This document shows, piece after piece, positions 3,414 through 29,037 of a stretch of 64,000 bases of DNA (positions are counted from its first letter, which is position 1; every line of letters begins with the position of its first letter). The position numbers were made by a program, and so were the translations under genes. Under the pieces are notes generated by a model that was not told the origin of the DNA, searched no databases, and worked only from the letters and a program-made list of their open reading frames with translations. The stretch covers positions 942,090 through 1,006,089 of the forward strand of contig NZ_SJPU01000001.1 of assembly GCF_007860105.1 (NCBI RefSeq), read 5' to 3'. Origin of the DNA: Allorhodopirellula heiligendammensis. Its GTDB lineage: Bacteria > Planctomycetota > Planctomycetia > Pirellulales > Pirellulaceae.

Positions 3414-3461
3414 GTGGTGAATCCGTTGGGGTGAAGGAGGGATATGGTGACGAGCGATGAG

Positions 3462-4331: not shown

Positions 4332-4578
4332 CGGTGAAGAGCAAATCGCTTAAGTAGTCGTGATAAACAGGGTCGGCGTTGATCGTCTCTTGATGGAATC
4401 GGCCAATGTTGATCTCGACCATTTCATCGACGAGTCGATTGAGATTCTGTGCTCGGCTGATCACGATCCCGCGGCCGAACGAACGCTTTGTGCAGTCAGC
4501 GATGATAAGCGGAAGTTCGACGGAGAAGTCGATCGCGTGAAGAGGACTGTTGCTGGTTTGAGTGAAGATTGCTTTCAA
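4288..4578 (-). CDS. Hypothetical protein, uncertain
   Basis: A 96-codon reading frame starts at TTG 4578 and encodes a mixed alpha/beta sequence (NLNRLVDEMVEINIGRF) with no recognisable motif. It overlaps the next gene by 44 nt. It is listed because its codon pattern resembles its neighbours, but it could be spurious. Confidence 0.3.
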   Translation of the reverse strand: MKAIFTQTSNSPLHAIDFSVELPLIIADCTKRSFGRGIVISRAQNLNRLVDEMVEINIGRFHQETINADPVYHDYLSDLLFTDGLEFVHRSGRYRM

Positions 4579-4700
4579 GCGAAGACTCTTGGTAGGAGAG
4601 GAAGAAGCGAAGGAGAGCGACGAGGACCCGATTCATTAAACCGGGACGCTTTCCGCTAGTCACGGTTTGGCAGGGTTTTTGACAAGTTCTGCCAACAGGT

Positions 4701-9153: not shown

Positions 9154-9495
9154 ATGTCATTCGCAAGTCAATCAAACCGCCCAGAGGGCTGTTTGTCGCC
9201 GAAGGAATTTGCCAAACGCGCCCGGATCGGACTGGCGACGGTTCATCGCTATCTCAGTCGCGGTCAGCTTACAAAAATCCAGAAGGCTGGGAAGAACAGT
9301 CGGATTTGGATCCCCGAGAGCGAGCTCTTTTCGTCTAGCTCGCAGACTCCGAATGGCGAATGGCGCGACTCGCAACAGTCTCCAATCGGCACATCAGCCC
9401 GAGGCAATAGCCTCGCTGGCAAACGCCCGGCGTGGATGAATGACTTGCGTTCCCCAACACATGGAGGCAATCATGCCCAAAAAAAATCATCTTGA
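9154..9495 (+). CDS. Excisionase-like helix-turn-helix protein
   Basis: The 113-residue product contains LSPKEFAKRARIGLATVHRY followed by a basic wing (KIQKAGKNSRIWIPESEL). This is the MerR-type winged HTH layout of excisionases, which help an integrase to excise an element. It overlaps the start of the tyrosine recombinase gene by 23 nt, the usual position for xis next to int. The Ser/Gln-rich tail is low complexity. Confidence 0.65.
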   Translation: MSFASQSNRPEGCLSPKEFAKRARIGLATVHRYLSRGQLTKIQKAGKNSRIWIPESELFSSSSQTPNGEWRDSQQSPIGTSARGNSLAGKRPAWMNDLRSPTHGGNHAQKKSS

Positions 9496-10681
9496 ACAGT
9501 TTCAATGCCAGTTCTTTCGCTGGCCCATTTACCAACGAAAAAACGGAGTCTGGTATGCCGATGGTCGCTCGAACGGTGCTGGAATTCAGCGGACGTCGCT
9601 CGGCACGAAAGACAGGCAGGACGCACTTGCTAACCTTCATCGTCTTGATCGCGTCCAGGCCGAGAATCTTGGGCTAGTACCGCGATCCACCTCATCAACC
9701 GGACCTCGGCACCTGTCGATCAAAGCGGGGCGGAAGCTTTTTGACGATCACACCTCGCGGCCCAGGCTGGTTGGCGGAACCAAGGAGAACACCCAAAAAC
9801 GCTACAAGTCGATCTTCGACAAGTTCAACTCCTTTCTTGGAACCAAACGCATCGTGGATTGGAATCAGGTTACCGAGAAAACACTCAGCGACTACGCTGA
9901 GCATTTGACTGAACTTGAGTATGCCTACAAAACAGTATTCGGTGAACTCAACACGATAAAGACCGCTTTCAAATGGCTATGCACCGAAGGGCATTTGTCG
10001 CGTGAGCCGTTGAAGTTGAAACTTCGAAAGGCAGACTGCCAACGGGCATACTGCTACACCGACGCGGAAGTTGCGGCAATGATCCAACACTGCGGTGAGA
10101 ACGATGAAGTCACGTGGCTCCAGGGCGTGATCATCGCGTTGTCCTGTACCGGTCTTCGGATCAGCGAACTGGCTTCACTCAAATGGTCGGACGTTCGCTT
10201 TGATGACAGGGCCTTAACGATTGCCGACGAGAGCGGCTTCGCCGACAGCGGCAACGAGCGTCGGTCGACGAAGAGTAGCAGGACTCGGCACATTCCAATT
10301 CATCAAAGTTTCCTAGACGTGCTTCAATCGTTACCGCGTCAGAACAATCGGGTATTTCTTGGACCGCGCGGCGGCCAGCTCAAGCCAGATACCGTTCGGA
10401 ATATCCTGGTGCGTGAAGTCATCGAACCACTCACACCCAGGTTTCCAAAAGCGTACCCCGGTGAACGAAGTTTCGAAAATGGTCGGCTTCATAGCTTTCG
10501 TCACTACTTCTGTAGTACTTGCGCGAACAACGCGATTCCCGAGCGAATCGTGATGAATTGGCTTGGCCATGCCGACAGCGAGATGGTTCGGCATTACTAT
10601 CACCTCAGTGATGACGAATCACGTCGTAAGATGGACCAGTTGAAGTTGATTGGACGTAGCGTCGGGCGTTCCGGCGTTTAG
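9473..10681 (+). CDS. Tyrosine recombinase / integrase
   Basis: The 402-residue protein has an N-terminal SAM-like DNA-binding domain (about 100-190) and a C-terminal catalytic domain. Catalytic residues are visible: Arg in TGLRISELASL, His-x-x-Arg in LHSFRHYF, His in WLGHADSE and the nucleophile Tyr in MVRHYYHL. The ATG at 9473 is chosen over the upstream ATG because GGAGG lies 5-6 nt before it. Directly downstream is a relic of a tRNA-Ser 3' end, the typical attachment site for this family, so the gene probably mobilised a genomic island. Confidence 0.9.
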   Translation: MPKKNHLEQFQCQFFRWPIYQRKNGVWYADGRSNGAGIQRTSLGTKDRQDALANLHRLDRVQAENLGLVPRSTSSTGPRHLSIKAGRKLFDDHTSRPRLVGGTKENTQKRYKSIFDKFNSFLGTKRIVDWNQVTEKTLSDYAEHLTELEYAYKTVFGELNTIKTAFKWLCTEGHLSREPLKLKLRKADCQRAYCYTDAEVAAMIQHCGENDEVTWLQGVIIALSCTGLRISELASLKWSDVRFDDRALTIADESGFADSGNERRSTKSSRTRHIPIHQSFLDVLQSLPRQNNRVFLGPRGGQLKPDTVRNILVREVIEPLTPRFPKAYPGERSFENGRLHSFRHYFCSTCANNAIPERIVMNWLGHADSEMVRHYYHLSDDESRRKMDQLKLIGRSVGRSGV

Positions 10682-11031: not shown

Positions 11032-12984
11032 ATGACTTTTGGAAGAATTGAAGTGCCGCCGCCAAAGAATGGGCGACGGTACCGTGGTATTGCGGTGTGC
11101 CGGATCAGCACCGACAAGCAGAATGAAATGAGTCTCGATGATCAGGCAGCGCTTTATCATGAGCGACTCCCATATTTTCTCGAAGATCCATATGATCTTG
11201 AGGTGATGGCGAGTCAGGGAAGTGGTGAGCTACTAGATCGAGTTGAGTTCATCGAGCTTTCGGAAAAGATTGAATCCGGGGAGTACGACTTTATCGTCGC
11301 GGAAGACCTCGGACGGATTGCGCGACGCGTCCAGGTGATAGGTCTGTGCGAAGCGGCGGAAGATACTGCGACTCGCATTATCGCCATCAATGATCACGTG
11401 GACACACTGGAGACGGAAAGTTGGCGACAACCCGCCTACTTCGCCGCGATGCGGCATGAAAGTTACAATCGAGATACGTCAAACCGAATCAAGCGTTCGC
11501 ACCGGAACCGGTTTGCCAATGGTGACATGGTTCGGCAATTGCCCGCCGGTTACGTAAAGCCGCATGCAGGCGCGAGCGAAGCGGATTGTCACAAGGCACC
11601 AGGGGCCCAAGAAGTCTACGACGAGTGCTTCGACCGACTCGAACGTGGCGAGTCATTCGCCGAAATTGCGACTTGGTTTAACGCGATTAAATTTCCAAGG
11701 GGGATGTCGGTGCGGAAAACCCAATGGGATGGAACCTTGGTCGGTCAGACAGTTAGAAACCCGATCCTCAAAGGCATCCGTGAGCATAATCGTCGGACCG
11801 CCGTTCGAGTGAATCGCACGGGACGACGCAAATCTGTCGCCGCGGCCCCGACCTTGCTAATGCAACGCGAATGTCCCCGTCTCGCATTCATTGAACCCGA
11901 ACGCTTTGACCGCGTTAATCGAATGCTCAATCGCCGAAACGAAAAGTTCGTCAAAGGAATTGCAAAGGCAAACGGCGGTCGTGGGCGACCGCAGGGAACC
12001 CGCAACGACGCTCGCTGGCCGAGCCAGCATGTTCGCTGCGGTATTTGTGGACGAAAGTTTGTTCTGGGTGGGCATGGTCGAAAGGAACGCATGATGTGCG
12101 ACGGCGTTCGAAGCTACGACTGCTGGAATGCCATGACGGTGGACCAGAGTGAACTGGCGCAGGCAGTTGCCGCGAGAGTCCTTCACGAAATCGAGTCCCT
12201 GCCAGACTTTGATACCGAGTTGAACGCACAGATTCACGCGGAAGCCGAGCAATGGCGGGTGCAACAGGACAGCGGCCTAAAGAAGCTTCACGAGGAATCT
12301 GCTCGATTAAAACTCGAGCTTGATAACTTTGCCAACGTGATTGCGGGTGGCCTAGCGAGCCCGACGATTCTGGCTCGGCTGACCGCGACCGAGCAAGAAT
12401 TGCAATCCATGTCGGATGCAATTGCCGACGCGAATAAAAACGCACCGAAGGCGATCGTGATTCCGAAGGCCGATGAAATTCGTAAATTCGCGAATGAAAC
12501 CTTTCTGGGGTTGGCAGTTGAAGATCTCGAATTTGGCCACATCATGCGTGAAATCGTGACGGATTTTTTCGTCTTGCCGTACCGACTCATCGACGGCGGG
12601 CTGATCTCTCCTCGTTGTGTCTTCACTTTAAACTTAGCTGCCCTTCGTGGAGTAAAGCTACCAGATGGTTTGGGGACAACAAGTATTCCAGCAATGGTCG
12701 ATCTGACGCGATCGCCGCAACGCGTGGTCTTTCGTGAACGGGTTTGTCAATTGCGGGCGATTGGAATGACCGAACGGGAAGTGGCAACGCGACTTTCGAT
12801 CACACACACAGCGGCGCAACGTGCGGCGGCGCTCGATCGCGAAATGACACGGCTCGGTATTGCTGATCCTTGGGTGCCCGTTCGGGACGACCAAGCAGCC
12901 GCAGATTGTTACACGCGGATTCGCAACCATAGGTATCGCTTCAATCCTTCACCAGGATTCGTGTGCAGATTCCCAAACACGTAG
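11032..12984 (+). CDS. Large serine recombinase
   Basis: The 650-residue protein opens with a resolvase domain in which CRISTDKQNEMSLDDQ carries the nucleophilic Ser; EDLGRIARR follows. A recombinase domain comes next (about 150-270), then a zinc ribbon (VRCGICGRKF ... CDGVRSYDC), a coiled coil (about 400-460) and a C-terminal HTH-like segment (REVATRLSITHTAAQRA). The length and order match large serine integrases. SD GGAG precedes ATG 11032. The gene follows a tyrosine recombinase of the same orientation, so two unrelated integration systems sit side by side. Confidence 0.85.
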   Translation: MTFGRIEVPPPKNGRRYRGIAVCRISTDKQNEMSLDDQAALYHERLPYFLEDPYDLEVMASQGSGELLDRVEFIELSEKIESGEYDFIVAEDLGRIARRVQVIGLCEAAEDTATRIIAINDHVDTLETESWRQPAYFAAMRHESYNRDTSNRIKRSHRNRFANGDMVRQLPAGYVKPHAGASEADCHKAPGAQEVYDECFDRLERGESFAEIATWFNAIKFPRGMSVRKTQWDGTLVGQTVRNPILKGIREHNRRTAVRVNRTGRRKSVAAAPTLLMQRECPRLAFIEPERFDRVNRMLNRRNEKFVKGIAKANGGRGRPQGTRNDARWPSQHVRCGICGRKFVLGGHGRKERMMCDGVRSYDCWNAMTVDQSELAQAVAARVLHEIESLPDFDTELNAQIHAEAEQWRVQQDSGLKKLHEESARLKLELDNFANVIAGGLASPTILARLTATEQELQSMSDAIADANKNAPKAIVIPKADEIRKFANETFLGLAVEDLEFGHIMREIVTDFFVLPYRLIDGGLISPRCVFTLNLAALRGVKLPDGLGTTSIPAMVDLTRSPQRVVFRERVCQLRAIGMTEREVATRLSITHTAAQRAAALDREMTRLGIADPWVPVRDDQAAADCYTRIRNHRYRFNPSPGFVCRFPNT

Positions 12985-13340: not shown

Positions 13341-13547
13341 CTGACACACATAATTCTCACGCTCATGTCCGTTGCCGTACTACTGCTTGCCGTCGCGTTC
13401 GCCAAAGAGCGTCGACTGCGAATGGCACTGCAACAGATCCTCAAACGACTCGTTCAACGATGGAGGCCGGATGAACCTGAACCAGATTATGCTCCCATTC
13501 ACGATGATGATCGTGACGCTTTCGATAGCCGGGTGCCAAGAAAGTGA
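13341..13547 (+). CDS. Small membrane protein, probable CTG start
   Basis: The product has an N-terminal membrane helix (ILTLMSVAVLLLAVAFA) followed by a basic and then acidic tail, 68 residues in all. The only in-frame ATG is at 13365. A very strong GGAGG lies 6 nt before CTG 13341, so initiation at CTG is proposed. The end overlaps the next gene by 77 nt in another frame. Confidence 0.45.
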   Translation: MTHIILTLMSVAVLLLAVAFAKERRLRMALQQILKRLVQRWRPDEPEPDYAPIHDDDRDAFDSRVPRK

Positions 13548-13980
13548 TGACACTCGTCTCGTTGAGATGTCTGAACGACACGAGCTCCGGCAAGCCGAGC
13601 AAACCCAACAGGCCAACCAGCTTCACCGAGAGTTCACTGCCATGCAGCGTGAGGTACAAGCTGAACGCACCGCCATCGGACAGCAGCGAGACCTTCTCGA
13701 AGTGGATCGCCGCTCAGTCGCATCGGAGCGCCGCTTCGATTCGCTCACTGCGGCAGCCGTCATCAATATTGGACTTTGGCTCGCCTGCCTGTTACCTCTC
13801 GTGATTGCGTGGCTCGTGCTTCGCCAACCGCAGTCTTCCGCCGACGACCAGGCGATCATTGATGTGATGTTGGAAGATTTGGTCGCGGACAAGCCGCGAT
13901 TGCTTTCCCAAAGGCCGAAAGCATCATCAAACTCGCCACGCATCCGCGTTGCATCGTCACCAGATGACGAACCTACCTGA
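13471..13980 (+). CDS. Lipoprotein with coiled coil and C-terminal membrane helix
   Basis: The product starting at ATG 13471 (GGAGG upstream) has a signal peptide ending in the lipobox LSIAGC. A Glu/Gln/Arg-rich coiled coil follows (RHELRQAEQTQQANQLHREF to about residue 85), then one membrane helix (INIGLWLACLLPLVIAWLVL) and a cytoplasmic tail. It resembles small accessory proteins that tether a complex to the membrane. It lies immediately upstream of the DUF1257 gene. Confidence 0.6.
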   Translation: MNLNQIMLPFTMMIVTLSIAGCQESDDTRLVEMSERHELRQAEQTQQANQLHREFTAMQREVQAERTAIGQQRDLLEVDRRSVASERRFDSLTAAAVINIGLWLACLLPLVIAWLVLRQPQSSADDQAIIDVMLEDLVADKPRLLSQRPKASSNSPRIRVASSPDDEPT

Positions 13981-14010
13981 TCCACTTAGCACTACCAACA
14001 GGAGACCACA

Positions 14011-14379
14011 TTGTCACACATCGTCACGATCACGACCGAGATTCGTGATCCAAACGCACTGCGAACTTCGTGTCGCAAGCTTGGTCTTGATGATCCCATT
14101 CATCAGACCATCAAACTATTTTCCGCGGAAGCGACCGGACACTGCGTCCAGCTTCCACGCTGGCGATACCCCATCGTCTGTGATACCGACAGCGGCACTG
14201 TTCACTACGACAACTACGGAGGTCATTGGGGTGAACAGGCTCAACTGGACAAGTTGATCCAGCGGTATGCGGTTGAAAAATCGGTTTTGGAAGCTCGCAA
14301 GCAGGGGCACTCCGTGACTGAACAATCACTGGCTGACGGATCGATCAAGCTCACCGTCGTAGTTGGAGGTGCCAGTTGA
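14011..14379 (+). CDS. DUF1257 protein (Ycf35-like)
   Basis: The 122-residue product begins at TTG 14011 with CAGGAG upstream. SHIVTITTEIRDPNALRTSC, then a central QLPRWRYPIVCD and YDNYGGHWGEQAQLDKLIQRYAVEK, match DUF1257, the family of the chloroplast/cyanobacterial Ycf35 protein. Its function is unknown, but it travels with DUF2997 and a Ycf46-type AAA protein, as here. The stop codon overlaps the next start (TTGA). Confidence 0.8.
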   Translation: MSHIVTITTEIRDPNALRTSCRKLGLDDPIHQTIKLFSAEATGHCVQLPRWRYPIVCDTDSGTVHYDNYGGHWGEQAQLDKLIQRYAVEKSVLEARKQGHSVTEQSLADGSIKLTVVVGGAS

Positions 14380-14570
14380 AAACGTTCAACATTGTCATCT
14401 CTCCGACCGGTGCGACCAAGATCGAAACGATTGGCTTTACTGGCGGTGAATGCCGCGAAGCCACTCAGTTCCTCGAAACCGCTCTGGGCAAACGACAGTC
14501 CGAAAGACTCACAACCGAATTCTATTCGGCTCAATCCGGCGCCAACACAGAAACACAAAAGGAGAGATAA
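14376..14570 (+). CDS. DUF2997 protein
   Basis: This 64-residue protein starts at TTG 14376, overlapping the DUF1257 stop by 4 nt with GGAGG upstream. FNIVISPTGATKIETIGFTGGEC matches the small beta-rich DUF2997 family, a usual neighbour of DUF1257. The C-terminal ten residues are low complexity. Function is unknown; the strict coupling suggests complex formation with DUF1257. Confidence 0.75.
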   Translation: MKTFNIVISPTGATKIETIGFTGGECREATQFLETALGKRQSERLTTEFYSAQSGANTETQKER

Positions 14571-15220
14571 TCGACATATCTAGCAAAAGCTTAAACGATG
14601 CAAGAATCCAAACAGCAGATCGCGTTGGTCTGCTGTTCGTCGTCGAGGGCATGAATGACATCGAGTTTTTGCGTCGCATCAGCTTGATGCTTCATGCCAC
14701 CGATGATCAGCTACCGAATTTGGCGGAGATGGAGCGGCGGGGTGAACTCATTTTCGTTCCATTCGGGGGCGGTCATGTTCGAGCGTGGGTCAATCGCTTT
14801 GCTCCGCTCGGTCGTCCCGAATTCCATCTTTACGATCACGAGCTGTCTCCCGAGACCGATCTCCGCAGGCAAGCTGCGGACTCGGTCAACAATCGTGAAG
14901 GATGCCGGGCGGTCATCACCCGGAAACGGTGTCTTGAAAACTACCTGCATCCAAGAGCGATATTTGCGGCGGGACAGATCACCGTGCAATTTGACGACTT
15001 CGATTGTGTCGCGGAACTGACTGCCCGCGAACTCTACCGCCAGCGTCCTGGCGAGACCGCATGGCTACTGCAGGCCAAACGTTCGCAAAGCCGAATGGCG
15101 AAACGTTGGCTCAACACAGTTGCCGTTGAACACATGACGCCCAGCTTGCTGGCCGAACGTGACCCAGACGGAGAAATCACGTCTTGGATGTTGGCGATCA
15201 ATGACCTGCTGGCACCCTGA
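14570..15220 (+). CDS. TOPRIM-like protein with non-standard start
   Basis: The coherent product (about 216 residues) contains LLFVVEGMNDIEFLRRI near its N-terminus and FHLYDHELSPETD later. This is the Glu followed by Asp-x-(Asp/Glu) arrangement of TOPRIM domains as in OLD-type nucleases. No ATPase domain is attached. No ATG, GTG or TTG starts the coherent part. GGAGAG at 14561-14566 points to ATC 14570 or ATA 14576 as initiator. It is embedded between DUF2997 and the AAA ATPase with minimal spacing. Confidence 0.55.
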   Translation: MDISSKSLNDARIQTADRVGLLFVVEGMNDIEFLRRISLMLHATDDQLPNLAEMERRGELIFVPFGGGHVRAWVNRFAPLGRPEFHLYDHELSPETDLRRQAADSVNNREGCRAVITRKRCLENYLHPRAIFAAGQITVQFDDFDCVAELTARELYRQRPGETAWLLQAKRSQSRMAKRWLNTVAVEHMTPSLLAERDPDGEITSWMLAINDLLAP

Positions 15221-15246
15221 ATTTCACTCTAAAACATGGAGAATGT

Positions 15247-16740
15247 ATGAAACTATCCGATCGATTGGAGGAATTGGTGAAAGCCTGTTTCACCGGCATT
15301 TGGATCGAAAGTCACGAGCACGACGATGCATTGCTCGAAATCAGCCAGCTTTGTCGTGAGCACGAGTGGCGGCTAGTGAGCTGGGACATCGACCAGGGTT
15401 TGCGAGTGAGCGGAACTCCGCTCGGTGATGATGATGGGGCAAATGACCCTTTGTCCGCAATTCGCTCCATGCGTTCGTTCGCTAGCGATGACACCCCGTC
15501 GATCGTCGTTTTGACGAATTTTCACCGCTTCCTCAGTTCCGCTGAAATCATGCAAGCGTTGACGCGTCAGATCGTTGACGGCAAGTCAACTCGAACGATC
15601 TTCGTGATTCTATCGCCGGTGGTCCAGATCCCGACTGAACTTGAAAAGCTGTTCATCGTCATCGACCATCCGTTGCCGACCCGGGAACAACTCAAGGAAA
15701 TTGCCGAAGGCATCGCCACCGAAGAGGGGGAACTCCCCGGAGCCGATCGACTCGAAACCGTGCTCGATGCGGCCATGGGATTGACTCGATTGGAGGCCGA
15801 GAATGCATTCGGATTGAGTCTGGTTCGTGATTCAGTGATCTTGCCGGAATCGGTTTGGGAACTGAAGGCGAGCATGCTCAAAAAGTCTGGCCTGCTGCAA
15901 CTCTACAAGAGCAGCGACGACTTCTCATCGCTCGGCGGGCTGGACAGTTTGAAGGCGTTCTGCAAACGATCGCTGCTTCAGCATGGGCGCGACAACCCAT
16001 TGAAGCGGCCTCGCGGCGTGCTTCTGCTGGGGGTTCCCGGCACAGGCAAGTCAGCATTCGCCAAAGCACTTGGCAATGAGACCGGACGCCCCACGTTGAT
16101 CCTCGACGTCGGGGCATTGATGGGCAGTCTCGTGGGGCAGACAGAGCAGAACGTTCGGCGTGCGCTGCAAATCGCGGACGCCATGGCTCCCTGCATTCTG
16201 TTCATCGACGAGATCGAGAAAGCTCTGAGTGGGGCGGCAGGATCAGGGCAAAACGATTCCGGGGTGTCGTCTCGCATGCTGGGCACGTTGCTCAGTTGGA
16301 TGAATGATCACACTTCGAACGTCTACCTGATCGCGACCTGCAACGATATCACGCGGATGCCTCCCGAACTCTCGCGTGCTGAGCGGTTCGACGGAATCGT
16401 GTTCCTCGATTTGCCGCAGCGTGACCAGAAAGACCGCATCTGGAACCAATATACCGCCATGTTTGGACTTGAACCGGAGCAAAAGCGTCCGGCGGATGAA
16501 AAATGGACCGGGGCGGAAATTCGTGCTTGTTGCCGATTATCAGCGTTGCTTGATATTCCACTCTCGCAAGCCGGGCTGAACGTTGTTCCTGTCGCAGTCA
16601 CGGCCACCGAATCGGTGGACCGTTTGCGTCAATGGGCGAGCGGTCGTTGCTTGGATGCGGAGAAATCTGGGATCTACCAGCACGAGGCCAAGCCTCAATC
16701 ACGACGGCGGGTGTCACGTTCCAGTCCGTCTCAGAATTGA
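15247..16740 (+). CDS. AAA+ ATPase, Ycf46-like
   Basis: The 497-residue protein has an N-terminal alpha/beta domain (about 1-200) like that of Ycf46, then a AAA+ module. Walker A is GVPGTGKSAFAKALG, Walker B is CILFIDEIEKA, sensor 1 is IATCND and the arginine-finger region is LSRAERFDGIVF. Small helical lid residues follow. Such proteins are usually hexameric remodelling ATPases. Context with DUF1257 and DUF2997 repeats the Ycf35/Ycf46 association of cyanobacteria. Here it precedes a ubiquitin-like cassette, suggesting it could unfold or extract modified targets (inference). Confidence 0.85.
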   Translation: MKLSDRLEELVKACFTGIWIESHEHDDALLEISQLCREHEWRLVSWDIDQGLRVSGTPLGDDDGANDPLSAIRSMRSFASDDTPSIVVLTNFHRFLSSAEIMQALTRQIVDGKSTRTIFVILSPVVQIPTELEKLFIVIDHPLPTREQLKEIAEGIATEEGELPGADRLETVLDAAMGLTRLEAENAFGLSLVRDSVILPESVWELKASMLKKSGLLQLYKSSDDFSSLGGLDSLKAFCKRSLLQHGRDNPLKRPRGVLLLGVPGTGKSAFAKALGNETGRPTLILDVGALMGSLVGQTEQNVRRALQIADAMAPCILFIDEIEKALSGAAGSGQNDSGVSSRMLGTLLSWMNDHTSNVYLIATCNDITRMPPELSRAERFDGIVFLDLPQRDQKDRIWNQYTAMFGLEPEQKRPADEKWTGAEIRACCRLSALLDIPLSQAGLNVVPVAVTATESVDRLRQWASGRCLDAEKSGIYQHEAKPQSRRRVSRSSPSQN

Positions 16741-16789
16741 AGCGATTACACGTGCTCACTAAAAAACCAACTTTTACCAAGGAGAATCC

Positions 16790-17734
16790 ATGAGCACCAT
16801 GCTCGAAGATCCTGTGACCCAGAATCACTCATCGCACGGAACTCGGCTGCAAGCCGAAACGACCGCAGTTCGCTTGCACATCCGCTGGCCGGGGACTCGC
16901 AAGAGTCTCAGTCGCGACCAGAAACAACAAGCTGCCGGCGCATTCGACGCCGATAGCCGCACACTCTCAGCAGCGAAGCGTCTCTTCGACACATCGCACC
17001 CGTCGTTCCGCGCCGTCTCGGCGATCAAAACGAAGGCGGGTGCGTTGTGGAAAGGCATGACGCTGCCATACATCGAGCCGGGAGTCCGGCTGTTGCGCCG
17101 GGGTGACGTTTCAGAGTTCGATGATCGCATGATCATCATCCAAGCGGATCTGAGCGAAGCCGTTGACGAACTCGACCGCTGTTTCGCGGAACTCGTCGAT
17201 CAAGCCCGCACGCAACTTGGGAACTTGTTTGATTCGGCTGACTATCCCGCTTCCGTTTCGGATCTGTTCGCGATTGCTTGGGATTTCCCATCCGTCACAC
17301 CGCCGGCGTATCTGCGAACGGTGAATCCTGAGCTGTACGAGCAGGAGTGTCAGCGTGTGCAGGCGAAGTTCGCTGAAGCGGTTGAACTGGCCGAGCAAAC
17401 TTTTGCGGAGGAACTATCACAGTTGGTCGGCCATCTAGCCGAGCGATTGTCGGGTTCGGTGGACGGCAAACCGAAAGTCTTTCGCGATTCCGCGATTTCT
17501 AATTTGAACGAGTTTTTCGAGCGTTTCCAGCATCTCAGCATTGGCAGCAACGACGACCTCGATCAATTGGTTGAAAATGCACGACAAGTCGTCAGCGGTG
17601 TCGACCCACGAGACTTGCGTGATCGCGCGTCGTTGCGTGATCGAATGGCACGATCGCTGACGGATGTCGAAACGAGTCTCGATGAACTCATGACGGATCG
17701 CCCACGCCGAAACATCATTCGGGGCCCGCGGTGA
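16790..17734 (+). CDS. Conserved-looking protein of unknown function
   Basis: The 314-residue product is mostly helical. Notable parts are RLHIRWPGTRKSLS near the N-terminus, KRLFDTSHPSFRAVSAIKTK and a long central helix (AKFAEAVELAEQTFAEELSQ). The early part faintly resembles DUF3150 proteins of phages and mobile elements, but I am not confident. AAGGAG precedes ATG 16790. It overlaps the next gene by 4 nt, so the two should be co-translated. Confidence 0.6.
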   Translation: MSTMLEDPVTQNHSSHGTRLQAETTAVRLHIRWPGTRKSLSRDQKQQAAGAFDADSRTLSAAKRLFDTSHPSFRAVSAIKTKAGALWKGMTLPYIEPGVRLLRRGDVSEFDDRMIIIQADLSEAVDELDRCFAELVDQARTQLGNLFDSADYPASVSDLFAIAWDFPSVTPPAYLRTVNPELYEQECQRVQAKFAEAVELAEQTFAEELSQLVGHLAERLSGSVDGKPKVFRDSAISNLNEFFERFQHLSIGSNDDLDQLVENARQVVSGVDPRDLRDRASLRDRMARSLTDVETSLDELMTDRPRRNIIRGPR

Positions 17735-17988
17735 GTGCCATCGAACTGGTCGTGACCTCCAACGGCGTTACTCGAATGGTCTTCGACGACCGCGTTGACC
17801 TTCGCTCGGTAGGTTGCATCTCCATCCAGCGTGGCTCACATGTTGAGCCAACGTCGGTGGGTCAATGGACCTCCGACCTCTCTCCCGTCGCTGGTCCAAC
17901 TCTCGGACCGTTTGACAAACGCAGCGAAGCCCTGGCGGCAGAAGTCGCTTGGCTTCATCGGAATTGGTTAGTCCGCTCACCGGAATAG
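17731..17988 (+). CDS. Small protein of unknown function
   Basis: The 85-residue product starts at GTG 17731 in GTGA overlap with the previous gene. It is beta-rich at first (ELVVTSNGVTRMVFDDRVDL) and ends in a helix (RSEALAAEVAWLHRNWL). No family is recognised. A strong terminator follows, closing this transcription unit. Confidence 0.5.
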   Translation: MSAIELVVTSNGVTRMVFDDRVDLRSVGCISIQRGSHVEPTSVGQWTSDLSPVAGPTLGPFDKRSEALAAEVAWLHRNWLVRSPE

Positions 17989-18013
17989 CCGTTCTTTCAA
18001 ATCTCCCTCTACC

Positions 18014-18058
18014 AAAGCCCCGTTCGTCTGACGCAAGTCAAGTGAGCGGGGCTTTTTT
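18014..18058 (+). terminator. Intrinsic terminator inside the cargo region
   Basis: AAAGCCCCG (18014-18022) pairs with CGGGGCTTT (18047-18055) and is followed by a T-run to 18058. It divides the DUF1257-to-17988 unit from the next genes. Confidence 0.8.
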
Positions 18059-18089
18059 CGTTTCCCCCCTTCGGTAAGGAACTTTTCCG

Positions 18090-18308
18090 ATGAACCAGAA
18101 CGACCTGAATCGTGCCGTGGCCCATGCCACTGGCGAAACCATCTCCGCAGTCAAACGACTCGGCTTCATGATCGCTAACCCCAGTGACCTGATTGACGAC
18201 CCGACCGATCCCGTGCACGGCGGTCGCGTCATCGACTGGGACGATTTCGAGTTCCTTCAAGATGAGCCCGATGAAAATAGCTTCACTTTGGAAGCCGCAA
18301 TCGGCTGA
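18090..18308 (+). CDS. Small acidic protein of unknown function
   Basis: The 72-residue product has an N-terminal helical part (NDLNRAVAHATGETISAVKRLG) that could form an HTH, and an acidic C-terminal half (DWDDFEFLQDEPDEN). AAGGAAC lies upstream of ATG 18090. Hairpins on both sides make it a separate mini-unit. Confidence 0.5.
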   Translation: MNQNDLNRAVAHATGETISAVKRLGFMIANPSDLIDDPTDPVHGGRVIDWDDFEFLQDEPDENSFTLEAAIG

Positions 18309-18348
18309 TGCGATGAAGCCCACTCGCCATCAGCCCTCTCTCTTCGTA

Positions 18349-18394
18349 GCGAAACGCCGCCGCTGTCCCGTTCGTGGACAGCGGCGGCTTCGCT
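18349..18394 (+). terminator. Long GC-rich hairpin
   Basis: GCCGCCGCTGTCC (18356-18368) pairs perfectly with GGACAGCGGCGGC (18376-18388), with flanking AGCGAA / TTCGCT extending the stem. It has only a weak T-tract, so it may be a terminator, an attenuator or an RNA-stability element ahead of the Ubl gene. Confidence 0.55.
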
Positions 18395-18445
18395 TTCCCA
18401 AACGTAAAACGTTTACCCGACACCCACAACTAAAGAGCACCAAGC

Positions 18446-18667
18446 ATGAAAGTTCTTCTCATTTCCAATGACGCCGGTGGATACGCCCATCACGTCGAAG
18501 CTCCCGACAACACGACGGTTCAGCAAATGTTCGAGCGGCATGTCGGCGCATTTCACGCCGACAGTTATCTCATCCGTGTCAATCGCCAACCCGCGGCGGC
18601 CGATCAAGTGCTGCGAGACGGCGACCGGGTCTCGTTCACACCACAGAAAATCGAAGGCGCTGCCTGA
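18446..18667 (+). CDS. Ubiquitin-like beta-grasp protein (Ubl)
   Basis: This 73-residue protein has a ThiS/MoaD/ubiquitin-type pattern: two initial strands (MKVLLISND and [10 protein letters not shown]), a helix ([12 protein letters not shown]), then [25 protein letters not shown] and a short tail KIEGAA. The [11 protein letters not shown] segment corresponds to the hallmark xxDGDxVxxxP turn of beta-grasp sulfur carriers and Ubls. Its C-terminus is Gly-Ala-Ala rather than Gly-Gly. It is directly followed by E2-like, JAB and E1-like genes, so it is probably the modifier that is activated, conjugated and removed by them. Confidence 0.75.
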
Positions 18668-18714
18668 TTTCTGCTTTCATTCGCCCCAACTGAGTGTTTC
18701 CACCGAGGAATGCA

Positions 18715-19734
18715 ATGAAAAACGAAATCAAACAAGACTATCGAGCTGCCGTTGAAATGATGCAGTCCCTGCAGCACATGCGTGACGCAACTTCGATGTC
18801 GCATTTCGATGACTCGATTGTGCAATGCAAACGTTGGCAGCGACGACTCGAAATGGCGACCCAGCATAACTGGCCCACCGCCGCAAGAGACGCTCGTGAT
18901 CGACTTCATGGCGCGCTCGACATCCTTCGAATGCGGACGACTCACTCCATCGACAACCTGAAGCGGCAATCTCGATCTCATATCGAACCCACCGCAACGC
19001 TGATCTTTCAAGAGATCCAAGCGCTGCGTGGCGAGTTTGATTCGGTCACGATTGACGGCTCGAACCAGCGACTGACCGTGACGACGACGAGCATTGTCCT
19101 CGACGGAGTCCTGCTGGGAAGCTTCGAAATTCGCTTGAATTGGAAGTATATCAAAGAATCGTCTCCGTTCGATGTGATCGCGCTCGAGCCTAACGAGCCG
19201 GCCAGCGGCGAGGGTGTGACGCATCCCCACGTCCAAAGCGATTCGCTTTGCGAGGGTGAGGGATCTGACGCGATTCGTCGCGCCCTGGATGAAGGTCGTT
19301 TGTATGACTTCTTCTGCATCGTCGATCAGATTCTGCGGACTTACAACTCGGGTTCTGCCTACGTTCAACTGGATGATTGGAATGGAGTCAACTGCCGATC
19401 CTGCGGCGACACCGTCGATTCCGACCAAGCACTCGCTTGTTCCAACTGCGAAACCGAACTGTGCATGGAATGCAGCACGTGCTGCGATTCATGCTGCGAA
19501 CGGTACTGCGAAGAATGCGCCTCGTCCTGCGAAAGCTGCGGCGACGATGCGTGCAAAATGTGCCTGAAGTCGTGCGACGACTGCGGCGAAAGTTTCTGTC
19601 CCTCCTGCCTCTCTGAAGGAACCTGTGATGATTGCCTCAACAACGAAAATGCAGAAAATGCAAAAGACGAACCGGAGCAACCGTGTCCTGCGGTTCAGCC
19701 CGTTTGCGTTGGCAAAGCTAGTGTACCTGCGTGA
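18715..19734 (+). CDS. E2-like conjugating enzyme with cysteine-rich RING-like tail
   Basis: The start ATG 18715 has GAGGA upstream; the product is 339 residues. Residues 1-95 are helical. Residues about 95-222 fit an E2 fold: strands, then FEIRLNWKY, then THPHV at about 169-173 and SDSLCEGEG with candidate catalytic Cys179, and a C-terminal helical part ([20 protein letters not shown]). Residues 227-310 contain about ten CxxC-type pairs (CRSCGD, CSNC, CMEC, CDSCC, CESC, CKMC, CDDC, CPSC), a multi-zinc treble-clef or RING-like array. An E2 with a built-in E3-like module is inferred. Its end overlaps the JAB gene by about 107 nt. Confidence 0.7.
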
Positions 19735-20296
19735 CATCGGGCCCACCGAAATCGGCGGTTTTGGAATTTCCAATGCCGATGACCTGTTGCTGATCGAAGA
19801 CATTCAGTTGGTCCGACAAACCTGCTCGGTCACCTCCGTCGAGTTCGACGACGCCAGCGTTGCCGACTTCTTTGACAGCCAAGTCGATGCCGGGCGCCAA
19901 CCAGAGCAATTCGCGCGAGTCTGGGTCCACACGCACCCCGGCGCCTCACCCTCACCGAGTCAAACCGATGAGGAAACGTTCAGTCGCTGCTTCGGCGGCG
20001 TCGATTGGGCCGTGATGCACATCCTGGCGGAAGAGGGAAACACGTACACCCGAGCCCGCTTCAATGTGGGCCCTGGAACGGATCGGCGACTGCGCTGCCG
20101 AACGATTCTCGATTGCGAGTTCCCGGGAACCGACCACGATCAATGGTTCGAAGAATACCGTGACAACGTCACGATCGACGACCCATTCGCATCGCGACGT
20201 TCGCTCACCGATCGCTACGACGATACCGACTGGTGGCAGCAGCCTCCCACGGCCGCCGATTTGTGGAGCGACCGGTTGTTCGAGGTTGGCCGATGA
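19628..20296 (+). CDS. JAB/JAMM metallopeptidase (deubiquitinase-like)
   Basis: The 222-residue product contains [14 protein letters not shown], an exact HxH-x7-S-x2-D JAMM zinc motif at about residues 99-112. The upstream acidic residue lies in EIGGFGIS. These metalloproteases cleave isopeptide bonds or process Ubl C-termini. ATG 19628 is preferred because AAGGA lies about 7 nt upstream; GTG 19625 is equivalent. It is translated from within the cysteine-rich end of the E2-like gene and overlaps the E1 gene by 4 nt (ATGA). Confidence 0.85.
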
Positions 20297-20961
20297 CCAC
20301 CGAAACATTCAACCGGTTCGCCCGTCAGAGCGACTTGGTCCCAACGGACCGCCTCACCCAAGTCACCGCAACGGTGATCGGCGTGGGCGCAATCGGTCGC
20401 CAAGTCGCACTGCAACTAGCCGCCATCGGCGCGCCCCGCATCCAACTGATCGACTTCGATCATGTCGACTTGTCGAACACAACAACGCAGGGCTATCGAA
20501 AGCACGAGATCGGCTGGAGTAAACCGTTTGCATGCGGTGAAGCGATCAGTGAACTCGATTCAACGATCGAGGTCACACGAATCGAGGATCGCTTCCGTCC
20601 CAGACAAACCATCGGCAACGCAGTTTTCTGTTGTGTCGATTCGATCACGGCGCGGTCGGCGATTTGGAAGTCTGTCGAGGGCCGCGTCGCGTTCTGGGCG
20701 GATGGCCGTATGCTGGGCGAGGTGATCCGCGTGCTGGCTGCCGATGACACACCGTCATCACAGCACTATGCGACAACCCTGTTCGCTGCTTCTGAAGCCC
20801 AGCAAGGAACCTGCACTTCACGCAGCACGATCTACGCCGCCAGCATCGCTGCGGGAATGATGGTGCACCAGTTCACTCGCTGGCTCCGAAACATACCGAC
20901 GGACGCCGACACCTCCGTCAATCTGCTTTCCGGCGAATGGACCGTCCGCGAAGCTTCCTAA
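20293..20961 (+). CDS. ThiF/E1-like adenylyltransferase
   Basis: The 222-residue product contains [19 protein letters not shown] (nucleotide-binding loop) and [17 protein letters not shown], the E1/ThiF signature for ATP and Mg. [16 protein letters not shown] follows. [17 protein letters not shown] near residue 177 supplies a candidate catalytic Cys. The short length and single domain match bacterial E1-like enzymes in Ubl operons rather than eukaryotic E1. It would adenylate the Ubl C-terminus and pass it to the E2-like protein. The ATGA overlap with the JAB gene shows tight coupling. Confidence 0.85.
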
Positions 20962-21028
20962 CGAAACGATCAGGGCACGAGCTTTCACCAAGACTTCCAG
21001 CCCTAACACGTTCTCGAAAGGAGGAAAC

Positions 21029-21163
21029 ATGGAAGGTCTAGCGGGATGGATCATCGTCGGCTTCGTCGCATGGTGGTCCTATAAGTCGAGCAAACGCACT
21101 GGCAGCCGCAAAGGTTACAACGTCGGCCGCAGCCGAAGTAAACGCAATCGCCGCCGCGACTAA
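21029..21163 (+). CDS. 44-residue basic membrane peptide
   Basis: ATG 21029 has an excellent AAAGGAGG 5 nt upstream. The peptide has one short membrane helix (LAGWIIVGFVAWWSY) followed by a strongly basic tail (KSSKRTGSRKG ... SKRNRRRD). It closes the Ubl operon. It may be a membrane anchor, small regulator or toxin-like peptide, but nothing proves a function. Confidence 0.55.
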   Translation: MEGLAGWIIVGFVAWWSYKSSKRTGSRKGYNVGRSRSKRNRRRD

Positions 21164-21174
21164 CCACTGGATGC

Positions 21175-21215
21175 CGTGGCCGCCCTTCGGGGCGGTCACG
21201 ACGTCTCTTTTTTTT
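21175..21215 (+). terminator. Operon terminator after the Ubl cassette
   Basis: CGTGGCCGCCC and GGGCGGTCACG form an 11-bp stem with one G-U pair and a TTCG tetraloop, followed by a long T-run (21208-21215). Confidence 0.9.
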
Positions 21216-21227
21216 AGCTATCAGTGA

Positions 21228-21359
21228 ATGCCCGGCGACGGCGTTCGCTTGAGCATCGCACTGAAGCAACCGATCGCGATCAGCCACGGCGACCACTTCG
21301 CCATCCGAGAAGCCGGCAAAACCGTCGGCTCGGGCGTCGTCACGCGAGTCGTCGCATAA
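21228..21359 (+). pseudogene. 3' fragment of tuf (EF-Tu C-terminus)
   Basis: Forty-three codons from ATG 21228 encode MPGDGVRL..., ...[16 protein letters not shown] and [13 protein letters not shown], ending at TAA. These match the last strands of EF-Tu domain III (MPGDN ... HPIA ... FAIREGGRTVGAGVV). A TGA lies directly before the ATG, and a terminator hairpin follows the stop. The rest of tuf is absent. It is most simply a remnant brought in by recombination at the end of the island. Confidence 0.75.
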
Positions 21360-22483: not shown

Positions 22484-23198
22484 TTTAGTTTCCTGAGTTA
22501 CTCTGCCAGCAATTGGGAACTAATAGTTTAACCCATTTGTTGAATTGATCGTGGGGGTGTCTCGATTGCTGCGAACTCATTCGCTTGCGAAGTGTCATCA
22601 TCAGTGCGATCGACTGGTGGGGTTCCAGCGGCGCGGTGTTCGCCTGCTTGACCGTGGTTGTGAACTCCGTGTGCCGTGCAATGGGTTCTAAACGAACATC
22701 AGTCGAAGTAGCTCAGTGGATAGAGCATCAGATTGAAACTCTGACGGTCACGGGTTCGACTCCCGTCACGCAACTGCCAACGTGTTTGGAAACAGACCGA
22801 TGGCTCCAGGGCACGAGAGTGTCCACCATGAAGCTGGCGGGCAGTCGGTTGCCTCGCCGAATCCGGTACGCAATATCGTTGCACCTCCAGCGATGGTTGC
22901 TTGCCAACATACGACGACGCCTTGCAGGTTCTCAGACAAATCGCCAAGCAAGGCCGGACGAATCTTGCCACGACTGTATGAAACGTTTGACTTCTTAGGA
23001 AGACGAACGCAAACGCAGCCCGATCAAGCGGACGCCGGCCACGCTCGCCGATTTGAAGCAAACTTCCGCGAAAGTTGCGTGTGATTCAGCGAACAATTGG
23101 CTGCCCAAAAGCCTCCTTCAATCAATTATCATCTTCAGATCAGTCGCCGGACGTCCGGCATCACAACTCGCAATGCGAGAAAGCTCTTGGAAGTCAAC
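22484..23198. other. 715-bp spacer containing only the tRNA-like element
   Basis: Apart from the tRNA-like sequence, no convincing gene is seen. Reading frames across it are explained by the tRNA-like body. GTTGCGTG at 23074-23081 is complementary to CACGCAAC at the 3' end of the tRNA-like sequence, about 300 nt away. Confidence 0.4.
22702..22774 (+). tRNA. tRNA-Phe(GAA)-like RNA lacking a paired acceptor stem
   Basis: The D-arm (GCTC ... GAGC), anticodon arm (TCAGA, loop TTGAAAC, TCTGA), variable loop and T-arm (ACGGG, TTCGACT, CCCGT) are all intact. The anticodon GAA is at 22735-22737. The expected 5' acceptor strand GTCGAAG does not pair with the 3' strand CACGCAA (two of seven positions), and no CCA is encoded. 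It is therefore a tRNA mimic or pseudo-tRNA rather than a normal tRNA. Its position in front of slipin and RNA 2'-phosphotransferase genes suggests a role as tRNA-like RNA in an RNA-repair locus. Confidence 0.6.
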
Positions 23199-24299
23199 AT
23201 GTTCCGCAAGATTCATATCCGCAGCTACGAAGTCGGCTTGAAATTCCGAGACGGTGAATTGGTTGGACTGCTCAGTCCTGGTAAGCACTACGTCTGGACC
23301 GGACTAGGCAAGGTCCACGTGCGAGTGGTCAGCAAGCGAGATCCGTGGATCGTCGACGACCAGCTTGACGTGATCGTGAAGTCGGGGAAATTCGCCGGCA
23401 AAGCTGACGTGATCGACTTGAAGGACCACCAGCGTGCGTTGGTGTGGATCGACGGTCGATTCAACCGCGTGCTTGGCCCAGGCCTGTACGCTTATTGGAT
23501 CGGCGTGCGTGATGTTCGCCTTGAAGTCGTCGCAATTGAGAACGCCCGTTTCGAGCACAAGGAGCTTGCAGCGATCGTTCGTGGTGGTGACGCGACTCGT
23601 TGGCTGGACGTTTGCAAGGTCGATCGCGACCACGTGGGGGTCTTGTTCCTGGACGGTCGCTATGCCGACGAACTCTCGCCAGGTCTGTACGCGTTCTGGA
23701 GGGAAGCAGCGGACGCACGAGTGGTAGAGCTCGATATGCGTGAGTCACAAGTCGACGTGAGTGGTCAGGAGATTTTCACAGCCGACAAGGTGACGCTGCG
23801 AATGAACGCGATCATCACTTACGGGGTAAAGGATGCTCGTCGCGCTGTAAGTGCCTCGACGGACGTTCGACAGTCGCTGTACCGAGAGGCGCAGTTGGCT
23901 TTGCGATCCGCTGTCGGTGCACGAGAACTTGACGGGTTCCTCGCCGCGAAGGACGATCTGATCGAAGAACTCGAAGCAAGCGTCCGCGACCGCGCCGCAG
24001 TGCTCGGCTTGGAAGTCGTCTCGGTTGGTATTCGCGACGTGATCCTTCCCGGCGACATGAAGGACTTGATGAACAAGGTGACCGAGGCCAAGAAGGCGGC
24101 CGAGGCCAACTTGATCTCGCGTCGTGAGGAAACGGCCGCGATGCGCAGCCAAGCCAACACGGCAAAGCTGCTGGCCGACAACCCAACGCTGATGCGATTG
24201 CGAGAACTGGAAGTACTCGAAAAGGTCGCTTCAGCGGGCAACATGAGCATCGTGCTCGGCGAGAGGGGACTCGCCGATCGAGTCGTCAACTTGCTGTAA
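23199..24299 (+). CDS. Slipin-type SPFH/Band 7 protein
   Basis: The 366-residue product from ATG 23199 starts FRKIHIRSYEVGLKFRDGEL. It contains two divergent repeats of VLGPGLYAYW / ELSPGLYAFW, then the SPFH core (VTLRMNAIITYGVKD, ...REAQLALRSAVGARELDGFL, LGLEVVSVGIRDVILPGDM) and a helical tail (KAAEANLISRREE). This is the slipin/stomatin arrangement, though no strong N-terminal membrane helix is seen. Such slipins often accompany RNA-repair genes (RtcB, KptA) in bacteria. A terminator follows. Confidence 0.85.
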   Translation: MFRKIHIRSYEVGLKFRDGELVGLLSPGKHYVWTGLGKVHVRVVSKRDPWIVDDQLDVIVKSGKFAGKADVIDLKDHQRALVWIDGRFNRVLGPGLYAYWIGVRDVRLEVVAIENARFEHKELAAIVRGGDATRWLDVCKVDRDHVGVLFLDGRYADELSPGLYAFWREAADARVVELDMRESQVDVSGQEIFTADKVTLRMNAIITYGVKDARRAVSASTDVRQSLYREAQLALRSAVGARELDGFLAAKDDLIEELEASVRDRAAVLGLEVVSVGIRDVILPGDMKDLMNKVTEAKKAAEANLISRREETAAMRSQANTAKLLADNPTLMRLRELEVLEKVASAGNMSIVLGERGLADRVVNLL

Positions 24300-24303
24300 A
24301 ACC

Positions 24304-24343
24304 GAAACGCCCGCGGCGGAGCAATCCACTGTGGGCGTTTTTC
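24304..24343 (+). terminator. Terminator between slipin and kptA
   Basis: AAACGCCC (24305-24312) and GGGCGTTT (24333-24340) form the stem, with T residues after it. Some read-through into kptA is possible because only 27 nt separate them. Confidence 0.7.
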
Positions 24344-24366
24344 GTTGTCGGATAGAATCTGTTACC

Positions 24367-24921
24367 ATGAAAACTGACAAATCACTCGTTTCCACCAGCA
24401 AGTTTCTCAGCTTGATTCTGCGCCATCAACCCGAAGTCGTTGGCCTGAAGCTGGATGACGAAGGCTGGCTCGACATCGCTCAAGTGGTCGACGCGGCGAA
24501 CCAGCACGGCAAGCAATTGTCGCTCGAACTACTTCACGAAGTCGTCGCGACCAATGACAAAAAGCGGTTTGCGTTGAGCGAGGATGGTCTACGAATTCGT
24601 GCCAGCCAAGGGCATTCCGTCGCCGGCGTCGACTTAAAGCTCGCCGAAACCACGCCACCAGCAACGCTTTATCACGGAACTGTTGCTGCGTTCATCGAAT
24701 GTATCCGGTCCACTGGCCTTGAAAAGCGGTCTCGCAACCACGTCCATCTCTCGACCGACGAAGAGACGGCGACCAAAGTCGGCTCGCGGCGTGGCAAGCC
24801 GATCATTCTTCGCGTCGACGCCGCAGCGATGCATCGTGACGGACACCTATTCTACTTGTCGGCCAACGGAGTGTGGCTGGTCGATGCGGTTCCAGTGGAG
24901 TTCTTGACCTTTCCGGAGTGA
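24367..24921 (+). CDS. kptA: RNA 2'-phosphotransferase (Tpt1/KptA family)
   Basis: The 184-residue product carries family signatures: SKFLSLILRHQPEVVGLKLD, GWLDIAQVVDAAN, the H-G-T of TLYHGTVAAFIECI, NHVHLSTDEETATKVG, and a final LFYLSANGVWLVDAVPVEFL. Tpt1/KptA removes a 2'-phosphate from RNA splice or ligation junctions using NAD+, producing ADP-ribose 1'',2''-cyclic phosphate. The ATG at 24367 gives the standard length. It follows the slipin and the tRNA-like RNA. Confidence 0.92.
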   Translation: MKTDKSLVSTSKFLSLILRHQPEVVGLKLDDEGWLDIAQVVDAANQHGKQLSLELLHEVVATNDKKRFALSEDGLRIRASQGHSVAGVDLKLAETTPPATLYHGTVAAFIECIRSTGLEKRSRNHVHLSTDEETATKVGSRRGKPIILRVDAAAMHRDGHLFYLSANGVWLVDAVPVEFLTFPE

Positions 24922-28976: not shown

Positions 28977-29037
28977 ACTGCTCTCCTGCCCGAAAAGAAA
29001 AGATGAACGCCAACGGCGCGATCCCATTCAGCGTATC

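Follow-up and report, generated by a model that had tools for sequence, protein, structure and literature searches.

Operons in which a ubiquitin-like protein (Ubl) is encoded beside its conjugating and processing enzymes are already known in bacteria as a kind (Iyer 2006; Bil; Bub). The type 6d operon of Iyer, Burroughs and Aravind (2006) comprises Ubl, JAB, E1, E2 and a helical protein according to the passages of PMC1779556 that concern it, and in the Bil system the deubiquitinase (DUB) opens the C-terminus of the Ubl, as presented in parts of PMC11354881. Here we analyse a locus of this kind in a 64,000-nucleotide stretch of DNA (hereafter the window) from the planctomycete Allorhodopirellula heiligendammensis (contig NZ_SJPU01000001.1, positions 942,090 to 1,006,089 of the forward strand). 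In the window a Ubl, E2, JAB and E1 cassette is joined to a second set of genes encoding DUF1257, DUF2997, an AAA ATPase and a DUF3150-like protein, and both halves are shared with phage-like contigs. We interpret the whole as a mobile planctomycete operon which combines Ubl conjugation with phage-type AAA/DUF3150-like remodelling and serves in conflict among host, phage and mobile elements, with a probability of roughly 0.5.

An earlier note, made from the letters of the window alone, had named most of these genes, and all of those were recovered in one orientation and where they had been placed. Three conserved genes came in addition, namely X314 (16790), Y85 (17731) and Z72 (18090); X314, which is DUF3150-like, is a core part absent from that note. 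Module A is defined here as DUF1257, DUF2997, AAA, X314 and Y85, with Z72, and module B as Ubl, E2, JAB and E1. The features of the operon are as follows.

14011..14379, + strand: DUF1257 protein, Ycf35-type (PF06868, 1.5e-5)
14376..14570, + strand: DUF2997 protein (PF11211, 1.7e-14)
14450..15220, + strand: TOPRIM-like protein by motifs, an optional part, true start uncertain
15247..16740, + strand: AAA ATPase with an N-terminal region of about 230 residues (PF00004, 4e-32, residues 258-388)
16790..17734, + strand: X314, DUF3150-like by way of a homologue on locus L162, adjoining the AAA gene
17731..17988, + strand: Y85, small and conserved, by its recurrence across loci
18090..18308, + strand: Z72, small and conserved, by its recurrence across loci, accompanying either module
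18356..18388, + strand: GC-rich hairpin of 13 bp, separating the two modules
18446..18667, + strand: Ubl, beta-grasp, with the C-terminal end ..KIEG-AA (ThiS matches, model)
18715..19734, + strand: E2-like protein with HPH170-172, Cys179 and a C-terminal tail rich in CxxC (motif, model)
19628..20296, + strand: JAB/JAMM isopeptidase with HTHP..S..D, start at 19625/19628 or further in (PF14464, 1.7e-6)
20293..20961, + strand: E1-like adenylating enzyme, one ThiF-type domain, conserved Cys174 (PF00899, 1.8e-20)
21175..21216, + strand: terminator-like hairpin and T run, end of the operon

Co-directional genes fill positions 13372-20961 of the plus strand, overlapping or narrowly spaced. The overlaps were measured as -4 nucleotides (nt) for DUF1257/DUF2997, X314/Y85 and JAB/E1 and about -107 to -110 nt for E2/JAB, depending on the start codon, and the widest gap of the core is the 137 nt from Z72 to Ubl. 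When positions 5,001-30,000 of the window were compared with the corresponding loci of Neorhodopirellula pilleata (L070) and Rhodopirellula maiorica (L071), DNA similarity was limited to about 14,106-21,229, and the conserved unit therefore runs from DUF1257 through the terminator. Since terminator-like hairpins are not enriched in the region (8, against a shuffle mean of 8.5), the terminator is called from its position and from the edge of DNA similarity at about 21,229. The hairpin between Z72 and Ubl is a possible attenuator between the modules; hairpins of 10-14 bp occupy the same gap in the other three copies of the operon in this genome and in some other loci, and its status as a general conserved element was rejected, many loci being without one. 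An inverted partial copy of the 3' end of E1 with downstream DNA was seen upstream of the R. maiorica operon (L071:2240-2569).

The joining of the two modules is not confined to the window. Among 294 genomes of the phylum, Ubl was found in nine, at 19 places, E2 in ten (one a weak match to the tail only) and X314 in 14, and seven of the nine Ubl genomes carry X314 as well; the genome of the window has four copies of E2 and genome G238 has six. When 84,980 genomes, one per species, were scanned, 132 Ubl relatives emerged; the analysis covers the best 80 and leaves aside the 52 weaker ones, and those 80 bear mostly planctomycete labels, with a few bins labelled Chloroflexota, Emcibacter or 'bacterium' (labels as given). 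Linkage was counted over 97 cellular Ubl loci (the window, L021-L038 and L070-L149, minus two duplicates). In the 52 loci with at least 7 kb upstream and at least 3.5 kb downstream, X314 was encoded upstream on the same strand in 36, AAA in 34 and both in 33. The cassette is thus joined to the DUF1257-DUF2997-AAA module as had been proposed, and the outcome held to count against that proposal, that the two should never be conserved together, did not occur. In the 33 fully linked loci DUF1257 and DUF2997 are each present in 32, Z72 in 33, E2 and JAB each in 33 and E1 in 32. TOPRIM, which had been counted among the members of the system, is present in the window by motif and is optional, occurring in 14 of the 33. 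Because the arrangement recurs across planctomycetes, it is not due to chance. The usual order is DUF1257, DUF2997, (TOPRIM), AAA, X314, Y85, Z72, Ubl, E2, JAB, E1, with TOPRIM after JAB in L088 and L110 and Z72 after E1 in L087 and L102 as exceptions. Where 1.5 kb or more of sequence follows the Ubl (87 loci), E2 lies downstream of it in 84.

On a tree of Ubl, JAB and E1 (82 rows, quick method), linkage requires 12 changes, six of them forced by starred branches, versus 19.6 when shuffled, and none of 500 shuffles was as low. The main clade of 65 rows holds 48 linked, 11 unlinked and six unscored rows; outside it, five of the six viral rows and several Phycisphaerae-labelled rows are without module A. 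Viral L192 falls inside the main clade on a long, unsure branch, and linked L125 falls outside. L138 was counted as unlinked despite AAA and Y85 matches upstream, and its X314 may be too distant in sequence to match; a 324-residue open reading frame (ORF) lies between these two matches in this Phycisphaerae-labelled locus (L138:7258-8232) and is perhaps a distant X314. Distances for AAA plus X314 and for JAB plus E1 were correlated over 41 loci (r = 0.76; none of 2000 permutations as high), which supports, at the level of sequence, a long co-inheritance of the halves, not contact between them.

The proteins of module B look like those of a conjugation pathway. The Ubl of the window is 73 amino acids (aa) long and has one Ubl domain. 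By itself it matches ThiS at 0.0069, under the Pfam cut-off, and all 18 aligned Ubl members match ThiS at a loose limit of E<=10, the best at 8.7e-7. A model built from the 18-sequence alignment (predicted local distance difference test, pLDDT, 87.9) had four matches in the PDB at E<=0.001, being ubiquitin-like, sulfur-carrier or RNF-complex proteins; the beta-grasp fold, for which the earlier note had advised structure prediction, was accordingly predicted, and a beta-grasp modifier, one general mark of Ubl conjugation, is present. Its end motif was matched in 98 of 103 sequences, and the presence of at least one residue beyond the Gly in all 98 makes trimming by JAB plausible. The Ubl frames of L028, L029, L031 and L032 extend at least 28 residues past the conserved Gly and, from their sequences, are possibly longer precursors.

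Neither Pfam nor NCBIfam matched the E2-like protein of the window, which is named by no family library. Its model (pLDDT 82.4; predicted template modelling score, pTM, 0.55) retrieved E2 enzymes or their complexes in 47 of the 50 PDB rows listed, with modest TM-scores; in a viral fold library the sole match at E<=0.001 was an uncharacterised giant-virus protein with TM-scores of at most 0.15, which is uninformative. HPH precedes the Cys in 94 of 96 E2s, at a spacing of six residues in 93, the exceptions being viral L190, which reads HPN, and L124, truncated by the contig end. The tail has at least four CxxC in 95 of 96 and ten in 71. Compared with RING/B-box E3s for a zinc-binding treble clef, its profile matched Midline-1 at 0.002, other matches being weaker. 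The JAMM motif HxHP..S..D is complete in 88 of 90 JABs; in L086 the reading frame is incomplete, and part of L129 is masked. The E1 of the window (222 aa) is a single short ThiF-type domain whose top PDB relatives are PaaA, ThiF, MccB and UBA5. The motif GxGxxGRQ occurs in 74 of 82 E1s and the strict Cys pattern in 72, Cys174 being invariant in nine of nine aligned sequences, so that an E1 adenylating domain with a conserved Cys, a second general mark of Ubl conjugation, was likewise found.

Module A points towards phages. The AAA, labelled Ycf46-like in the earlier note, has a full-length relative in the phage family phrog_8638 (residues 4-487, 9.9e-83), its best NCBIfam match being the CDC48 family at 4.3e-24, far under the model cut-off. 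The X314 of the window does not reach the gathering score of PF11348 (DUF3150), and PF11348 is absent from the families listed for 14 planctomycete X314 members; the homologue on L162, recognised by profile A3 at 8.8e-52, matches PF11348 at 6.1e-11. A PDB search with X314 gave nothing useful. The protein at 14450..15220, which we take to be TOPRIM-like from its motif, had no match in Pfam or the PDB and a weak one to GajA in PADLOC (0.006); EG..D..FL and D-x-E are invariant in seven sequences. None of the PADLOC 2023 models matched Ubl, E2 or X314.

Relatives of X314 were found on 25 viral contigs, where 'viral' is the label of the sequence collection and nine stretches with listed ORFs looked phage-like by eye. 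At E<=0.01 an AAA lies beside X314 in 24 of the 25, 15 of them scoring 532-680 and nine 88-120; judged by sequence score, the latter may belong to another AAA family. The same contigs carry DUF2997 in 22 cases, DUF1257 in 21 and Y85 in 20, and the Ubl cassette in none within the stretches examined. Ubl relatives occur on six viral contigs of the same collection, with JAB and E1 in all six, E2 in five and module A absent. The AAA of the window further matches 147 phage records, none of which reaches 60% identity; in 31 of them the match spans 80% or more of the protein. X314 matches one. With the E1 of viral L189, 45 phage records were found to have E1-like genes, and among the 20 listed many are named crAss-like. 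In three such stretches from crAss-like or related phages (L218, L219 and L220, about 2.3-6.7 kb), the E1-like gene adjoins a metalloprotease-domain gene (annotated in L219 and L220), candidate E2-like and Ubl-like genes were seen by eye in the same order as in the window, and a primase and UDG lie nearby, with a PD-(D/E)XK exonuclease in L219 and L220. Homology of these crAss-like cassettes to E2, JAB and Ubl found no support in profile comparison (hhalign E 0.24, 0.051 and 0.085), and the operon's profile models recognised only E1 in those records, at 3e-30 to 4e-26.

The mobility proposed in the earlier note is borne out by recombinases and by a discrete unit repeated within the genome. Upstream of module A the window encodes:

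9440..10681, + strand: tyrosine recombinase, a neighbour indicating mobility, outside the core (PF00589, 2.3e-23)
11032..12984, + strand: large serine recombinase, a neighbour indicating mobility, outside the core (PF07508, 8.4e-10; PF00239, 2.2e-7)
13372..13980, + strand: h, with a membrane-like segment by eye and an uncertain start, found upstream in many loci

A Pfam search with h gave no match above the cut-off. For 55 loci the upstream sequence extends 9 kb or more. In 25 of these it contains a recombinase relative, counting serine recombinases in the operon's orientation and tyrosine recombinases in both; a same-strand serine recombinase relative is present in 19. The three other copies in the genome (L021, L022 and L023) share 91-95% mutual DNA identity over about 7.9 kb. 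This unit starts shortly ahead of h and reaches a hairpin with a T run, shared by all three, past E1 and the small gene W158; their flanks do not align, save one 69-bp piece. W158 lies past E1 in these three loci and between Z72 and Ubl in L115, L116 and L119, and recurs adjoining exonuclease, clamp or Ubl genes. Comparing 7.0-11.0 kb with 21.0-26.0 kb of the window gave no exact direct repeat of 13 bp or longer. In L101 the A+B operon is preceded by a TniQ-like gene (2834-4852, 61.7 bits), and TniQ-like-looking ORFs were seen by eye at the same side in L084 (2888-4864) and L114 (3034-4950), which suggests Tn7-like carriers. Downstream of the operon in the window stands an SPFH/Band 7 gene, and after it one for a KptA/Tpt1 RNA 2'-phosphotransferase (23097-24921); an RNA 2'-phosphotransferase is also near the X314 relative of a phage. 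On the minus strand, 25026-29027 is a 1333-residue ORF with, by eye, an apparent type II secretion ATPase N-terminal-like segment inside.

Module A also stands by itself, in a setting suggestive of conflict. Ten of 12 A-only loci (L150-L161) show DUF1257-DUF2997-AAA-X314-Y85-Z72, L159 being cut by the contig end and L161 lacking Z72; downstream lie a clamp-like gene in eight, an exonuclease in four and W158 in three. Seven large ORFs adjoining A-only loci, picked by size and position in a sample that leaves aside L151, L152, L160 and L161, were compared with PADLOC. Six, all upstream, matched strongly: DrmD with 1082 bits (L154) and 360 bits (L156), HmaA with 618 (L157), PglW with 1539 (L155), a type I methyltransferase with 846 (L158) and a type I restriction enzyme with 480 (L150). 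The sole downstream ORF, in L153, had a weak match of 43 bits, and five control ORFs from random stretches had no match at 1e-10. GajA (780 bits) adjoins the A+B locus L028. These restriction, DISARM-like or BREX-like neighbours are suggestive only of a conflict setting.

If the two halves act together, JAB would trim the Ubl behind its conserved Gly, E1 would adenylate that Gly and pass the Ubl to Cys179 of the E2, and the zinc-finger-like tail of the E2 would choose the target, so that no separate E3 is needed. Together with its partners, the AAA motor might then recognise the tagged complex and pull it apart, after which JAB would act in recycling. The tagged protein would likely be one that sits on nucleic acid or within an invading element, and the role of the system one in conflict among host, phage and mobile elements. 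Of the earlier suggestion that all genes work together, the joining of the halves has stood, the halves have proved separable, and joint action is what we infer.

Several results weigh against this interpretation. The distance correlation is far weaker once near-copies are removed: over 25 non-redundant loci r is 0.41 (none of 2000 permutations as high, the highest permuted value being 0.387), and common descent within the same hosts would yield such a correlation too. Modules A and B are each found alone, and therefore neither requires the other. The copy in the window is not a near-identical member of the repeated unit, its DNA alignment to L021 being limited to three pieces of 60-235 bp. 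The E2 fold, which the earlier note had put up for checking, emerged consistently among the PDB rows at weak significance, no match reaching E<=0.001 and the best standing at 0.037. PADLOC offered only general AAA, E1 and JAB matches for the operon's enzymes. Four ORFs flanking A+B loci gave weaker matches (GajB-like 123, TniQ 62, PNP-type effector 61 and HEC-05 56 bits) than those beside module A alone; the defence neighbours were hand-picked for their size and adjacency, and the PADLOC threshold was unequal, 1e-5 in the test and 1e-10 in the controls. Used as queries, the seven defence proteins matched two of 57 A+B loci (one of these the query's own), none of 27 B-only loci and none of 20 control stretches. 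Six A-only loci were matched solely as themselves; the finds beyond self were a DrmD relative in L031, an A+B locus, and a type I methyltransferase in L153, which is A-only.

The strongest rival, serious if somewhat doubtful, sees two independent cargoes on the same mobile elements, with a shared promoter and no common mechanism, the Ubl pathway having its own targets and the AAA its own DNA-related job. It accords with the 12 A-only loci, with the 16 of 52 Ubl loci that have no X314 upstream, with the hairpin that separates the modules in the window and in the other copies of its genome, and with recombinases being found upstream of unlinked loci (10 of 21) as well as of linked ones (15 of 34). 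It sits poorly with a main clade that keeps the linkage in 48 rows, with the tight gene spacing and the Z72 common to both modules, and with the repetition of A plus B as a single unit in one genome.

An origin in viral replication or repair, in which the Ubl tags a replisome protein such as the sliding clamp, the AAA remodels it and the planctomycete operons were captured or domesticated, appears unlikely. Besides the viral relatives of X314 and Ubl, it can draw on the DnaN-like clamp, whose profile matches Pol III beta in the PDB at 1.6e-6 and which follows module A in eight of 12 A-only loci and E1 in L077, L102 and L125; on the exonucleases of four A-only loci, of the PD-(D/E)XK type, and a DNA polymerase I-like gene in L189; and on the crAss-like E1-like gene, which adjoins a gene annotated with a metalloprotease domain and has UDG and exonuclease in its vicinity. 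Near A+B loci with at least 7 kb downstream, however, a clamp occurs in only two of 67 and an exonuclease in three; the crAss-like candidates for E2, JAB and Ubl are unconfirmed as homologues, the contigs are viral by collection label, and a guess that L193 encodes a terminase found no PDB match. Decidedly unlikely, in our estimation, is a more specific form of joint action, a phage-born counterpart of Rad6-RING/Cdc48 logic, in which an E2 with a zinc-finger ligase tail would tag a DNA-bound protein (e.g. a DnaN-like clamp) and the AAA/DUF3150-like motor would remove it, giving a switch for use where a phage or an element is in conflict with its host. A sulfur-carrier or cofactor pathway of the ThiS/ThiF kind, with no protein conjugation, is suggested by the ThiS matches and the single ThiF-type domain and is very improbable given the conserved E2-like Cys/HPH and the JAB in the same operon, a Ubl ending in one G plus at least one residue, several copies per genome and the mobile setting.

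Returning to the mobile conjugation and remodelling operon, were its halves to act together it would be a compact bacterial tag-plus-motor system, with E1, E2, DUB, modifier and AAA partner in one operon, in which the coupling of ubiquitin-like signalling to AAA unfolding could be tested in a simple setting. It adds a candidate conflict system with phage-like relatives, three of whose proteins are unmatched by the 2023 PADLOC models. Literature searches, judged by titles and the starts of abstracts, found no description of this operon. Burroughs' 2011 work on prokaryotic RING fingers reportedly may mention planctomycete E2/RING genes, and for this reason we claim no priority.

Among described systems, the type 6d operon has in common with the window that Ubl, E2, JAB and E1 are stand-alone proteins encoded together in a bacterial operon, as given in the relevant passages of PMC1779556, which describe its E2 as lacking the classical His and describe no AAA, DUF3150 or DUF1257; the words 'planctomycete' and 'pirellula' occur 0 times in the main text of that paper. 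Since window-type E2s keep HPH before the Cys, assignment to type 6d was rejected. BilABCD likewise has four genes for Ubl, E2, a JAB-type DUB and E1; according to the portions of PMC11354881 dealing with these proteins, BilA has two Ubl domains, BilB a CEHH motif and BilD two adenylation domains with a Cys domain, whereas the window has one Ubl domain in 73 aa, an E2 with HPH-6-C and a CxxC tail and one short ThiF domain in 222 aa, and assignment to Bil was rejected on these grounds. Bub resembles the window as a bacterial Ubl-type operon in a likely immune setting, in the parts of PMC13373217 that describe it; the solved BubCD chain has 458 residues with a ThiF-like region at 183-296 and is apparently fused, whereas E1 and E2 are separate genes in the window. 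In PRTRC and CBASS (Cap2/Cap3), too, mobile or defence loci encode ThiF and JAB proteins, and both assignments were rejected: PRTRC matched only through PRTRC_ThiF (26.5 of 144.75 bits), 16 E2s being without a PRTRC match, and CBASS gave Cap3 at 13.7 of 200 bits and no CD-NTase among the scanned operon genes. The E1-E2 models of PADLOC reached 45.6 bits at best. Module A has its likeness in phage AAA/DUF3150 genes, near full-length for the AAA (phrog_8638) and through the X314 homologue for PF11348; the viral contigs with X314 differ from the window in that no Ubl cassette was found in the stretches examined. The cyanobacterial ycf35 (DUF1257)-DUF2997-ferredoxin cluster has the same two DUF families adjacent, together with a ferredoxin gene and, in the passages of PMC4284462 on this cluster, no described Ubl cassette. 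What is unusual in the planctomycete operon is its distribution among viral contigs, its AAA/DUF3150-like half and the CxxC tail of its E2.

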